Positions 46,701 to 55,700 of a stretch of 64,000 bases of DNA are shown one piece after another. The position numbers were made by a program, and so were the translations under genes. The notes beneath the pieces were generated by a model. It did no database searches. It was not told where the DNA came from and worked only from the letters and a program-made list of their open reading frames with translations. Every line of letters starts with the position of its first letter. Position 1 is the stretch's first letter. The DNA is from Notolepis coatsorum (Eukaryota; Chordata; Actinopteri; Aulopiformes; Paralepididae), in contig OZ020586.1 of the NCBI GenBank assembly GCA_963971535.1, positions 77,290,703 to 77,354,702 of the forward strand, written 5' to 3'.

Positions 46701-49700
46701 AGAGGCAGTTGTTTGAGTGATTTTCACCTCAGATTCTGGTGAACCTTTACCGGTGTGTCATTGAAAGTGTACTCACCAACTGTATCACAGTCTGGTACGG
46801 CTACTGCACTGCCTCTGACCAGAAAGCACTGCAGAGGGTGGTGAGAACCGCCCAACGCATCACCGGTACACGTACACCACTCCCTACTATTTTATTTCCT
46901 TTTTTTATATCCTCTTTTTCTCCGCCTGATTTTCTATGCTTTTCTCCCCATCCCAATTTTAGTCGTTATGCCAATTCCCCCCCTCCCCTACCTGGTCGTT
47001 GTGCGCATGTTCCCCCTACTGGTCGGTACAAGGGAACCCTGAAGTCTACCACATGCTTCCTCCGACACATGCAGAGACAGCCAGCAGCTCTCTTTTCACC
47101 TGGCAGCGAGGACTCTCATTGGTGAAGCGTAATGCGTGGGAGGTCACGCTGCCTTCACCACTTCCTGCCTTTCGCTGAGCAGGCGCCCAGACCTGACCTG
47201 TAGGCGTCGCTGTCCACAACGCCAGATTACCACCCACGACTTCCCTCCCGCTAACTCAGCCAAACGAGCTAGTATGACGATCGGCCCAAGCCGCAGGCAA
47301 TGCTGACTCCGGGAGTCAAGACCGCAGCCTCTTGCATTGGTGACGAGCGCAATCTCCGCTACGCCACCCGACCGCCCTCCACTCCCTACTATTGAGTCTA
47401 TCCACCACAAATGGTGTCTGAGGAAGGCACGCAGCATTGTCAAGGATATCTCTCACCCCAATTATGGACCCCTCTATACACTTGCTTGTACACCTGCACA
47501 TGTTTCGTTGTACTGTACTTGTGCAGTATAATGACAATACATTTGAATCTAATCTAATCGAATCATTATGGATCCATGACTATAATATGCGATAGAGATC
47601 TCCCAGCCCTCTATGAATTCTAATCTGGTTGTAACTCAGGCCAGTCCTCTCTCCCATCTCCCTTGACGTTCTTCACCCTATCCAATATCCAGTGGTAGAA
47701 GAAGTACACAGTTCCTTTACACACAGTTCCCCCTCTCTCTCTCTCTCTCTCTCTCTCTCTCTCTCTCTCTCTCTCTCTCTCTCTCTCTCTCTCTCTCTCT
47801 CTCTCTCTCTCTCTCTCTCTCTCTCTCTCTCTATCTCTCTCTGTCTACCAGTCGCAGACTGTGTGGGCTGACTGTCACTCAAAGTGCTTATGGGCGGGGC
47901 CATAACAGCCTGAAATCCTGAGGGTGAAAAATGATGGTTTTGAGTACTTGATTAGAAATATAAAACAATGCATTTAAAAAAAAAAAAACTTACAGATGTC
48001 TTCAATAGACTCACGGGAATTGTGTAAAGTTGCCCAAATAGTGCTAGGAATAGCAATGCAGGTCCCCTTTAAGTAAAAGTAGAAATACCCAGATAAATTA
48101 GTACTCTGGAAAAAGTATGCATTCTACGTTTGTGTATTCCAGTGCTTGGGAGCATTCAATCCTTGACCCATTGACCTCTAAAAGTTATGTTAAAGTGGTA
48201 TGTGGTCCAGTTCTGTATCATAGTCGGTTCCGCTCGTCGTCACTCATGCACTGTCCTCGCACACGTGCACGCGCACTGAATAAAGACCACAATGTACCTT
48301 TAATCCCAATATTTGTCTGACCACACCCCTATCAGCTCACCTACATAAGCAGGTGTGTGGTCACCTGCTCTCCTCCTTTCTCGCTTTCACCACAAGGAAG
48401 TGCCTCGGTAGATCCCCACTTGACGTGATGTGATGGTAGGAGAAGAGTTGGAAAACGAGATACGTTGACATCATATCTTTATTTTCTCTCTCACTATATT
48501 CGAGAAAATACGGCGATATTGTCTTCGTACTGGAGTGTCTGGAAGATGATGATCATTCTAAAAATCCTCCACCGGTTTTCGTATTGGGAGTTCGCGCCGC
48601 TACATGCTTTCCAACTGCAGTCCTTGCTGTGTGCTGGTTGTGGTAAAGGCACAGCTGGACTGTAGGATGCGCCGCTGTTGTGAGAAGTGGTGGGTTCCAG
48701 GTTTGGTGAGTTATGTTTTTGCTGGCGAGCTCCACTTGTCTGTTAGTGCTATGGGGGCTAGTTGACAATGTTTATGAAAACCGGCCCCAGACTAGGGTCT
48801 TTTGTTCAGCCTCTTAGGCGACGGCGGAAGACCTTGGTCTGAAGCCCATTATAATTAACTAGTGGGCCACGACCAATAACCCTGTGTTTTCTGGACGAGT
48901 GGTTGTTTCTCTGTCACCGTGAGGCCCCTTCTTTCATAATACAAATGAGAGTATTCCCTCACGAGGAAATATGGGCATGGATGTTCGTTAGCGGAAGATC
49001 TGTGTTCAAGTCAGCTACAGGCCAGTTGGGTATTGTGCTGGCTCCGTCGGGTGTTGGTAAAATCACCGTTGTAAAACTGTGTTAAAATCTTGTTTCTCTT
49101 CTCTCTTAAACAGTGAGGAGGGTTTCAGAACGGCGGCCTGTCTGAGTGATTGTTATATCATTGTGTACAAGTTCAGGTGATAGCTGCTTAGCTTACGTGC
49201 TAGTGGTGGCCTACTGTTAGCCAGTCAGCTGTTAGCTGCGGCGCTAGCCTGTTGTGATCACTAGGCTAGGAAACGTTAGCTTGCGTGCTAGTTATGGCCT
49301 ACCTAGGCTAGGCTAGGAAACGTTAGCTTGCTGCTATCAGCCGAGTGCAGCCGTTAGCTTAATGCTACACTGTTGAACGTGCTTTGATTATAACATGTTT
49401 TAAACGCTCTTGACTACGACGTCATCTTTGACGGAAGATGTTCGTCGAACCTGCCCTGAGCCAGGACGGCAAGGACTGCGTCAACAAGGGGGACCGTAGC
49501 GACGGGATGGAGCGGCGACGCTGCCCAGGTCGACAACACAGAACGGCTGTGTTTACTACGGTGCCTTGTTAGAGGCTGCAGTTTCGCTTGATCTGCGCTC
49601 AAGGTAGGCAAGGTCTGACCAGACCTTGAGCACGTCTTCTTGCTTTCCCTTCTAAATGTTTTGTAAATAACGATGTTTTCCAAAACGAGTGTTGCTGCAC

Positions 49701-52700: not shown

Positions 52701-55700
52701 TGGCATCATGGACTTCTCCGGGCCCCCATTCCAGGGGGTCCAGTCCCTTTGGTGGGTCTGGGCCTTCCTTCGCGCTCCGCTGCTACGGCCTTGCCACGGG
52801 GTTGGGTTTGCCCTTGACCCCGTGATTCTGGGGGCAGTAACGAGGTTGTTCCCTCCGTTCGTTCCCGGGTGGCATGCGGGTTGTGCGTGTGTGTAGTCGT
52901 GGGGTCAGGCCACGGTCTGCTCACCCTGTGCGTTGAGTTGCTTGAGTGCCTCTTCGCACGGTCGGGTCCGTCGCCCTCCCGGGAAACCTCCAATAGGGGG
53001 GGTGCCCTCCATTAGGGAGGGTCGGGGGGGCTCGGCCCTCCCTGTTCTGATGGTTGTGGGGGGCCTTCAGCGGGGTGTATTTGTCGGCCGGTGGCTCCGC
53101 TCTGCCTCCCTATGTGCATGAGTGACGCCGAGCGGAACCGACTATGATACAGAACGTTAGGTTATGACTATAACCAAGTTCTGTTAATAGTGGTGACGCT
53201 CGGCGTCCGACGCCGCTGCAGCCCTTGATCTCACCTTGTGGTGAAAGCTTGGGAAGGAGGAGAGCAGGTGACCACACACCTGCTTATGTAGGTGAGCTGA
53301 TAGGGGTGTGGTCAGACAAATATTGGGATTAAAGGTACATTGTGGTCTTTATTCAGTGCGCGTGCACGTGTGCGAGGACAGTGCATGAGTGACGCCGAGC
53401 GTCACCACTATTAACAGAACTTGGTTATAGTCATAACCTAACGTTATGCTGCTCTGATTATGTCTTCTTGAAGTTGACAGGCTTCAAATGTATAGAATCT
53501 TTAATAATTTTGTCCTCTTGAAGTTGACAGGCTTCAAATGTATAGAATCTTTAATAATTTTTGCCATGTTTTCTATACAAAATCTTTTTCTTCAAAGTAA
53601 CTAGTAACTGATGGGTTCAGGTGAATGTAGTTGAGTAAAAAGTACAATATTTCCATTGAAATGTAGTAGAGTAAACGTTCCCTAAAATGAAAATACTCAC
53701 GTAAAGTACAAGTAGCTTGAAATTACAGTAATTGAGTAAAGGTACTTAGTTACTTTCCACCATTGCCAATATCTAATGAAGCAAAACCTCTGCGAAAAAC
53801 ATACATTGGCCTCCAGTGTTCATGCTGTGTGTTCTCCAGGTCTGGTGCTGCTGAGGAGGTGGATCTCCGGCAGCGTGTGCTGCAGCGGAGTGAAGCTGTG
53901 TGGCAGGACCGTGGTTATAACCGGCGCCAACACCGGCATCGGCAAGGAGACGGCACGGGACATGGCCAGGAGAGGTGAAGCCTTCACTTGTTCACATCTG
54001 ATGGGGTTAATCTCTTACCGGGTCCTTCAGAGGGGTCGGCCAAGACGGGGATTGTGTTAAATTGGCATCCTGCCTCTGGACACAAGGCCCGTCAAGGCCG
54101 TTGTCGGAAAGTGGTGTTGTTGTCCAGCAGGGGGCACTCTGTCCTCTGGACTTGTCAGTGACAATGCCCCTGTGACGGTGATAGGGACACCGTATAGCTG
54201 CGAGTGCCGTCCTTTGGATGAGACGCTAAACCGAGGTCCTGACTGAATTCGTTAAACAACCCAAGACGCCTATCGCAAAGAGTAGGGGGTTCCCGGACGT
54301 TCCTGGCCAAATTCCCAATCCGGTCTCTGACATCAAGGCCACCTAATCATCCCTCCCCCTTAATTGGCTGATATCAATCCCTGTCTCCTGAGCCGTTCAG
54401 CCATTGTGTAGTGTGATGTGTGCCTGGTGCCAGTGTATGGCAGCCATTGAGCCTGCGTAGCCCAAGGTTGGGTGCTACCAGTGGTGGTGAAGGAGGCCAT
54501 TTCCACCCTACATTGTGGGGAGCGCTTTGAGTTTCTAGAAAAGCGCTATATAAATGTAATGATCATTCATTCATTCATTCATTATAAGGTTGTCCATAAT
54601 AGCAACGCCAATGCAAGGTTAGCCCCCAGGTGAGATGCAACATAAGATAAGATAAGATAAGATATTCCTTTATTGATCCCCTTGGCGAAATTCGGGCGTC
54701 GTAGCAGCATGGGGGAGGGGGGGGGGGGGTACAGGTATGGGCAGGGTAATAGCAGAAAGACTATAAATAAAGGCAATACAATTACATCTGAATATACTAT
54801 GAGTAAAGGTAAACAGTATACACAAGGTGCAGGTCAGGGTCTGTACCCTATCAGTCATAATAAACGTTATAGTCTGTGCAGGTTTTGGTGGTCAATAATC
54901 AGACACACTTAATGGTTAAGGGTCAGGCATTCCTAATAGTTCTTAAGTTCTGCAGCCGTTAGTTCTCCAGCTGCTGGCAGCAGTCCATGCCCCCCAGTTG
55001 GGGAGCCTGAAGGACAAGTCGAGGCAGTTAGTGGAGTGTCAGGGGGGGGGGGGGGGGGGGTTGAGTCTGTGGCTGAACGTGCTCCTCATCTTGGTTGGCT
55101 TCTCATGGGGGGGGGGTTCTCCGGTATAGCGGCCAGCTTCCTTCTCATCCCCCACTCTGCCACCACCTCTAGTTTGACAAGCTCGACCACCACGGAGCTA
55201 GCTTTCCTCTCCAGCTTGTTCAGTTTGTTGGTGCCCCTTGAGTTGATGTAGCCCCCCACCCCCAGTATACAATGGAAATAAAGAGGACACTGGCAACTAC
55301 AGACTGGTAAAACGACTGCAGCAGGCTATTGCACATATCGAAGGACCTGAGTCTCCTCAGGAAGAACAACTTGCTCTGTCCCTTCCTGTAAAGGGCCCCT
55401 CTGTTGTCCGACCAGTCTAGTTGAATGTGCGGGTTACCAGTTGCTAGAGTCTCAATTGGGTCTAATGTAGGTTTACTGCTATGGTCACATGGACACCTGC
55501 ACCTCCCAGTATCTCAGACATCTATTACACCATCTATCTACGCCATCTATCTACACCATTTACACCACCTGCACAATTGACACCATCTACACCATCTAAA
55601 CCTTCTACACCATCACAGGTCGGCAATAGGCGGCCCGCGGGCCGAAATTGCCCCGCCAGCAATAATATCTGGCCCTTCAGAATATAAAAAAATATATATA

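Follow-up and report, generated by a model that had tools for sequence, protein, structure and literature searches.

A probable non-autonomous, gene-less DIRS-type element of Notolepis coatsorum with an internal image of its joined ends

Positions 48210–53445 of the window (the whole analysed stretch of 64,000 nucleotides from the fish Notolepis coatsorum) hold, on the forward strand, an element of 5236 bp that starts and finishes with GTT. We consider it, with a probability of about 0.85, to be a non-autonomous, gene-less derivative with DIRS1-type architecture, which would have been moved in trans through a circle templated by its internal complementary region (ICR). The sequence comparisons establish that it has terminal repeats, that the ICR is an image of both ends joined, that insertion takes place at a GTT and duplicates nothing, that many copies exist, and that the ICR and the termini change in concert between subfamilies. 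The limits of the element are given by its own repeats, by other copies and by flanks that are uninterrupted elsewhere in the genome. Its GC content (0.51) is higher than that of either flank (0.42 and 0.40).

The alignment of both ends divides the inverted terminal repeats (ITRs) into an outer divergent and an inner conserved part. The left terminus (48210–48237, forward strand), which starts with GTT, is the divergent part, and it is followed by the conserved part at 48238–48378 (forward), with imperfect similarity on to about 48397. On the right, the conserved part lies at 53254–53394 on the reverse strand; the divergent part (53395–53420, forward) is followed by a right extension of 25 nt (53421–53445, forward), which has no counterpart in the left repeat and ends with GTT. 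The arms 48226–48378 and 53254–53406 are 98% complementary over 153 nt, and they are identical over 48238–48378 and 53254–53394. The near-identity of the repeats described by the sequence-only reading is thus real, and it is refined by locating the divergence in the outer 28 nt or so and by adding the right extension. The window element therefore presents the divergent outer part, conserved inner part and right extension of DIRS1-like elements, divergent ITRs and a right extension being features of described DIRS elements (PMC3266345). The split direct repeats of Ngaro and PAT elements (A1-B1-A2-B2) are not its plan, since its terminal repeats are inverted.

The ICR consists of two halves, both read on the forward strand. 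The left half (53114–53155) is complementary to 48210–48251 at 41 of 42 positions, and the right half (53153–53207) to 53391–53445 at 55 of 55; the assignment of the latter is based on pairing and covariation. Both halves share the circle junction AAC at 53153–53155, which reads GTT on the complementary strand. Reverse-complemented, 53114–53207 thus gives the right end, one GTT and the left end joined, at 93 of 94 positions, as had been claimed before the analysis. The sole mismatch is at 48237, where the window has a T, a base absent from the 20 other copies examined, all of which have G. Matches of 42–55 nt within 5.2 kb have, by our own estimate, a negligible chance of arising at random. 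The genome (3.42 Gb) contains the exact junction 24-mer of the window 79 times and its backwards control 0 times.

An ICR that is complementary to both termini, with halves overlapping on the 3-bp circle junction as in DIRS1-like elements, is also seen in other subfamilies. For the three subfamilies whose left end was available, agreement of the left half with the terminus of the same element is 41/42 positions in the window, 42/42 in copy L059 and 43/43 in subfamily M. These left ends differ mutually at many sites, yet each matches its own left ICR. Three mismatches separate the right ICR of L059 from its right end. According to the sequence-only reading, copies lacking the ICR would point to a different element class. 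Partially lacking copies do exist, as 4 of the 15 copies with a right end have a damaged ICR: L012 is without most of the right half, L018 is without the left half, and in L009 and L021 the ICR is interrupted by gaps of 10 and 14 nt, respectively. These losses look like later deletions.

The right half of the ICR and the right terminus change in concert across four subfamilies, as judged from an alignment of 33 rows (23 distinct) and 56 pairs, with shuffled (500) and slid pairings as controls. Paired cells amounted to 99.4%, against 95.7 ± 0.3 in the shuffled and 22–45% in the slid controls, and cells changed on both sides were 63, against 22.4 in shuffles. The covariation score was 0.123, against 0.054 in shuffles (0 of 500 reached it) and a maximum of 0.031 in slid pairings; these shuffle counts are not probabilities, because the rows are related. 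Among five measures, two were unremarkable: the number of pairs with double changes (7), reached by 76 of 500 shuffles, and the number of further pair types, reached by 500 of 500. Gap cells aside, each non-pairing cell is private to one row, and the differences common to several rows are mirrored. This covariation shows that the ICR and the ends are copied together, and it is silent on which of them templates the other.

The window element and all 15 copies with a right end start and finish with GTT, and the identity between their flanks is 0–2 nt; no target duplication was found at any of these 16 insertions with both ends. When the flanks of the window element were joined, 40 of 40 scored matches, out of 1815 candidates and not read letter by letter, matched other repeat copies across the junction, one example covering query positions 7–139 (133 bases, 95%). 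The joined flanks of copy L013 gave the same result (40 of 40 scored matches, of 2988 candidates, cross its junction), and L081, the one empty-site match of L013 that was read, has a single GTT. Insertion thus takes place at the junction motif of 3 bp and leaves the target unduplicated, as in DIRS1-like elements. The sequence-only reading had predicted GTT termini without duplication and had named duplicated flanks as evidence against itself; the copies and the uninterrupted sites agree with the prediction, and duplicated flanks were looked for and not seen.

Relatives of the element number about ten thousand in the genome (10,090 matches to the junction core and 12,354 to the body). From 39 non-window matches 20 copies were fetched, of which 15 reach the right end within the fetched stretch; the expected copies sharing the termini were found among them, with GTT at both ends. 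Compared with the majority of the copies, the window element has 26 differences in 5236 positions, 22 of them found in it alone, and W copies differ mutually by about 1.3%. Another subfamily includes copies that are 97–100% alike over the last 0.8 kb or so. The earlier claim of recent movement therefore holds in a relative sense. That reading had not included three points: the lack of recognisable retrotransposon coding, the 5S-rRNA-like stretch, and the membership of a family of about ten thousand.

Regarding coding content, the 63 open reading frame fragments with a length of 45 aa or more matched Pfam only weakly: there were 10 matches, the best with E 0.0058, and no retrotransposon enzyme was among them. 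Neither the two longest frames of the window (210 and 171 aa) nor the frames taken from two relatives (177 and 128 aa) matched any family with an E threshold of 0.1. The gag, RT/RNase H/methyltransferase and tyrosine recombinase of DIRS1-like elements are thus not recognisable, and for this reason the element is classed as a non-autonomous derivative working like DIRS1-like elements and not as an autonomous member. The window also has four RT fragments; translation of two of them over the motif gives FADD, the form found in non-LTR elements, and they are therefore not DIRS.

An autonomous partner with the same termini, which the sequence-only reading had proposed to look for, was not found in the genome by a weak search consisting of profile searches and the last 0.8 kb or so of 20 loci. 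The Dam profile gave 0 matches in the genome and its control matched only in E. coli; the LAP2alpha profile also gave 0, and its control matched nowhere. Thirty loci (about 3.2 kb each) of the 48 Phage_integrase matches fell into two groups (22 and 8), neither with the sequence of the element. No partner was seen among 20 further ICR-core loci, read over their last 0.8 kb or so, so that a coding element with that end could remain among them. Two of these loci, L061 and L065, have a 177-aa frame that is still open where the stretch stops; the frame of L061 has no Pfam match.

A 5S-rRNA-like stretch, covering the full length of the Rfam model (RF00001, 67.7 bits), lies at 51862–51979 on the forward strand, and it is also present in L059, L082 and L083 (63.7–69 bits). 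Downstream of it, after 20 nt, comes a run of five T residues (51999–52003 in the window), with a T5 run at the same place in these three copies. Such a run is expected to end a Pol III transcript, and the stretch was rejected as a Pol III promoter for the length of the element on account of it. Among W copies, nucleotide diversity is 1.30% in the 5S-like stretch, against 1.28% in the body. Between subfamilies, the part that we take to be boxes A to C is little changed (54, 52 and 53 of 54 positions); the whole stretch has 116, 109 and 110 of 118.

The earlier DIRS-type reading with a circle-junction image is supported by the architecture, the GTT ends, the lack of duplication, the sister copies and the way in which ICR and ends change in concert. 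Following the published model (PMC3266345), the enzymes of an autonomous DIRS, acting in trans, would reverse-transcribe an RNA transcript of the element, and the ICR would bridge both ends, templating their completion and joining into a circle. A tyrosine recombinase would then recombine the 3-bp junction of the circle with a genomic GTT, leaving no target duplication.

An autonomous DIRS whose genes were scrambled by mutation, the body being a pseudogene region and not originally non-coding, would have the observed length (5.2 kb) and plan, which equal those of autonomous fish DIRS (PMC3266345). The GC content of 0.51 also fits the fish DIRS average of 53.8% given in PMC7599744, and a few frames of 171–210 aa persist. 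This decay is nevertheless unlikely, as the divergence of about 1.3% among W copies is too small for erasure of genes after insertion, and Pfam finds nothing of a retrotransposon enzyme in the 63 open reading frame fragments. Any gene loss must predate amplification, so the amplified family would be non-autonomous under either reading.

The match between ICR and termini might also be produced, without templating, by gene conversion or recombination between inverted copies within integrated elements, whose arms are probably long enough to recombine; the direction of information flow is not given by sequence alone. Against it, the 94-nt image joins the right and left ends over one GTT, and these ends are 5 kb apart in an integrated copy, so that the joined sequence is offered only by a circle or a head-to-tail junction. 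The departures from pairing that are private to single rows and the mirroring of differences common to several also argue against conversion, which we find quite improbable. A DNA transposon or MITE-like element would account for long terminal inverted repeats with no recognisable coding, and it is the most improbable origin, contradicted by the lack of target site duplication at 16 of 16 insertions and already by the uninterrupted sites. In addition, we know of no role for an ICR or a right extension in cut-and-paste elements.

The role of the DIRS ICR has, in our judgement, so far rested mainly on anatomy; under the preferred reading of a non-autonomous derivative moved through a circle, the joint change of ICR and termini adds evolutionary support for the circle model. 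With its thousands of copies in several subfamilies, a gene-less family of this kind is a natural experiment, in which the conserved parts reveal the cis needs of the machinery. A possible, rather doubtful extension is that a gene-less DIRS-type lineage of at least four subfamilies and about ten thousand copies has kept only the termini, the ICR and the 5S-derived module; the ends and the ICR would then be all that DIRS mobility requires in cis, and the 5S-like module may aid transcription or RNA handling. The family suggests that tyrosine-recombinase (YR) retrotransposons, like LTR elements, can yield large non-autonomous families with a sizeable share of an animal genome. From the match counts, this share would be about 50 Mb, or 1.5%, on the assumption of full-length copies, although many are incomplete.

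Large retrotransposon derivatives (LARDs) are gene-less, LTR-bearing and need enzymes in trans; the window element is likewise large, gene-less and trans-dependent, with DIRS termini and an ICR instead of LTRs. It resembles fish DIRS1-like elements such as the published GaDIRS1 (GTT/GTT/AAC, 5322 bp, ICR 46–56; PMC3266345) in its GTT termini, AAC circle junction, right extension, length of about 5.2 kb, lack of target duplication and two overlapping ICR halves close to the 3′ end. Unlike them, it has no recognisable gag, RT/RNase H/methyltransferase or tyrosine recombinase, and it has a 5S-like stretch. SIRE, described in PMC6681497 as the non-autonomous form of the YR retrotransposon VIPER, is a comparable partner of a tyrosine-recombinase retrotransposon, but it is short, truncated and kinetoplastid, whereas the window element is 5.2 kb long with a non-coding body. 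Cassandra and Ajax are non-autonomous LTR retrotransposons bearing 5S sequences; according to PMC10886601, these are located in the LTRs and serve as a Pol III promoter in Cassandra, and may do so in Ajax, whereas in the window element the 5S-like stretch is in the middle of the body. The architecture is therefore already known; the large gene-less version is new, and its lack of genes together with its abundance is less usual.

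The element at positions 48210–53445 of the window carries inverted repeat arms (48226–48378 and 53254–53406) that are 98% complementary, and an internal complementary region (ICR, 53114–53207) that pairs with the left end at 41 of 42 positions and with the right end at 55 of 55. The two ICR halves have AAC/GTT in common, and the ICR, taken as its reverse complement, is identical to the joined ends in 93 of 94 positions. The single mismatch lies at 48237, where all 20 other copies have the other base. By this comparison it is a change of the window copy itself, and the image was probably 94/94 when the copy inserted. 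The sequence-only reading had described a DIRS-type element with inverted terminal repeats (ITRs), an internal region complementary to both ends and a shared GTT; this anatomy and class are confirmed.

A search of the 3.42-Gb assembly containing the window with the left 271 bp of the element showed that the best 40 scored of 2069 candidates were 98–100% identical. From the 39 non-window matches, 20 were fetched, and in 15 of these the fetched stretch includes the right end. These 15 and the window copy all read GTT...GTT, with a flank identity of 0–2 nt, and thus insert without target duplication. In 29 of 36 insertions an A directly follows the right end: 13 of 16 in this set and 16 of 20 in a second set, in which one of the 20 right ends (L069) is GGT. 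The genome contains 79 exact occurrences of a 24-mer from the junction of the window's subfamily. A 30-nt core of the junction, conserved from one subfamily to another, is present 10,090 times with at most 3 mismatches, and a body 31-mer 12,354 times. Backwards controls gave 0.

Empty sites were searched with the window flanks joined by one GTT (query positions 91–93). All 40 scored matches, of 1815 candidates, cross these positions by their alignment coordinates; for example, query 7–139 aligned over 133 bases at 95%. The matched sequences are other copies of the repeat in which the window element sits. The joined flanks of another copy, L013, gave the same result (40/40 scored of 2988), and the one match inspected (L081) has a single GTT. 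Most matches to the joined flanks of the window element end inside the first unit of a 50-bp tandem duplication (53457–53556, 96%), 12 bp beyond the right end of the element, which may be local to this site. Copies L019 and L026 lie in similar minisatellite-like repeat, at GTTAACC units, and an uninterrupted version of the L026 insertion site is found within the left flank of L019. Elsewhere in the window, a 60-bp tandem repeat (59605–59825) has units with a tRNA-like stretch (59753–59820, minus strand; Rfam tRNA, 32.6 bits). Reverse-transcriptase fragments (Pfam RVT_1) are located at 1145–1633 (minus strand), 13992–14873, 19811–20233 and 34239–35231; the two translated across the motif read FADD, like non-LTR elements.

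The first 100 places of the body 31-mer and of the junction core were listed. On C1, between 15.1 and 77.9 Mb, an exact body 31-mer lies close to 22 of the 79 junction-core matches listed and is lacking near the other 57, of which the first 20 were examined over about 0.88 kb each. The last ~0.8 kb is the same sequence in 20/20, rearranged in L071, and the longest frame in these stretches has 177 aa (L061, L065), open at the stretch edge. By identity, subfamily M is dominant (16/20, 97–100% alike); L069, L077 and L078 belong with L059, and L071 stands alone. At many sites the left end of L059, a member of 4541 bp, departs from that of the window element; the ICR of L059 nevertheless pairs with its own left end at 42/42, and there are three mismatches between its right ICR and right end. 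An M element assembled from L080, L082 and L062 (G000:C1:18817732-18823525; 5794 bp if a single piece, read on both sides of its middle) pairs its left ICR with its own left end at 43/43. M is 72–82% similar to the window element in the left part and about 91% in the right, and sequence comparison suggests a mosaic ancestry, with template switching or recombination as its suggested origin.

The subfamilies of this derivative provide an evolutionary test of ICR templating. The right ICR was counted against the right terminus in 33 rows, of which 23 are distinct; alignment A2 leaves out four copies with ICR deletions (L009, L012, L018, L021). Pairing holds in 99.4% of cells, against 95.7% in shuffles and 22–45% in slid versions; double changes occupy 63 cells against 22.4 in shuffles, and the covariation score is 0.123 against 0.054 in shuffles and at most 0.031 in slid versions. 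Seven pairs have changes on both sides, against 5.5 in shuffles (76 of 500 shuffles reach 7), and further pair types show no excess (11 against 14.7). Gap cells aside, each departure from pairing is confined to one row, as expected of mutations after insertion. The ends and the ICR change in concert.

Compared with the majority sequence of 20 copies, the window copy has 26 differences over 5236 positions, 22 of them unique to it, and body diversity among copies of its subfamily is 1.28%. Judged by divergence, it is young relative to old repeats, but group M, in the part examined, includes copies that are more alike.

The window element shows no recognisable genes, and its longest stop-to-stop frame has 210 aa. 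Among 63 fragments of 45 aa or longer, a Pfam scan picked up 10 weak matches, the best at E = 0.0058 and none of them to a retrotransposon enzyme, and the two longest frames rescanned singly matched no family at E up to 0.1. A 5S-rRNA-like stretch (51862–51979, 67.7 bits) is also present in the three other copies scanned (L059, L082, L083). The 210-aa frame is unbroken in 10 of the 16 copies spanning it, which at ~1% divergence is little informative; in L082 (subfamily M) and L083, insertions and deletions fall within it. The element is a member of a gene-less, 5S-bearing, very abundant derivative. We consider the rival reading, a decayed autonomous element, improbable, and propose, with a probability of about 0.85, a non-autonomous DIRS derivative moved via an ICR-templated circle; both weights reflect that the 20 further loci are known over their last ~0.8 kb. 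Reverse transcription would be performed by enzymes supplied in trans, the ICR would template the circle, and the GTT of the circle would recombine with a genomic GTT.

Searches for a helper gave no match with two domain profiles (Dam, LAP2alpha), which are poor probes for DIRS, and other tyrosine recombinase elements with Phage_integrase, also a poor probe. Among the 48 Phage_integrase rows, 11 lie in stop-free frames of 405 or 419 aa (loci L035–L042, L047, L050); L035, the only one scanned, also matches DUF3504, which we take to suggest Crypton-like elements. A second group of tyrosine-recombinase-like frames (L049, L051–L056, L058) is unjoined to the first at the DNA level and is without the element's sequence.

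The accessible parts of the literature searched, with Repbase and most subscription papers outside it, make no mention of a gene-less DIRS1-like family, and no paper there matched wording for non-autonomous DIRS; Repbase may hold entries for such elements. In the portions available, SIRE is described as the non-autonomous form of VIPER (PMC6681497), and DIRS1-like elements as having ITRs with divergent and conserved parts plus a right extension, two ICR halves overlapping at a circular junction of 3 bp, and insertions that leave no target duplication (PMC3266345). As far as that source describes it, the plan of the window element is identical to that of these elements, including GaDIRS1 of stickleback (GTT/GTT/AAC, 5322 bp, ICR 46-56).
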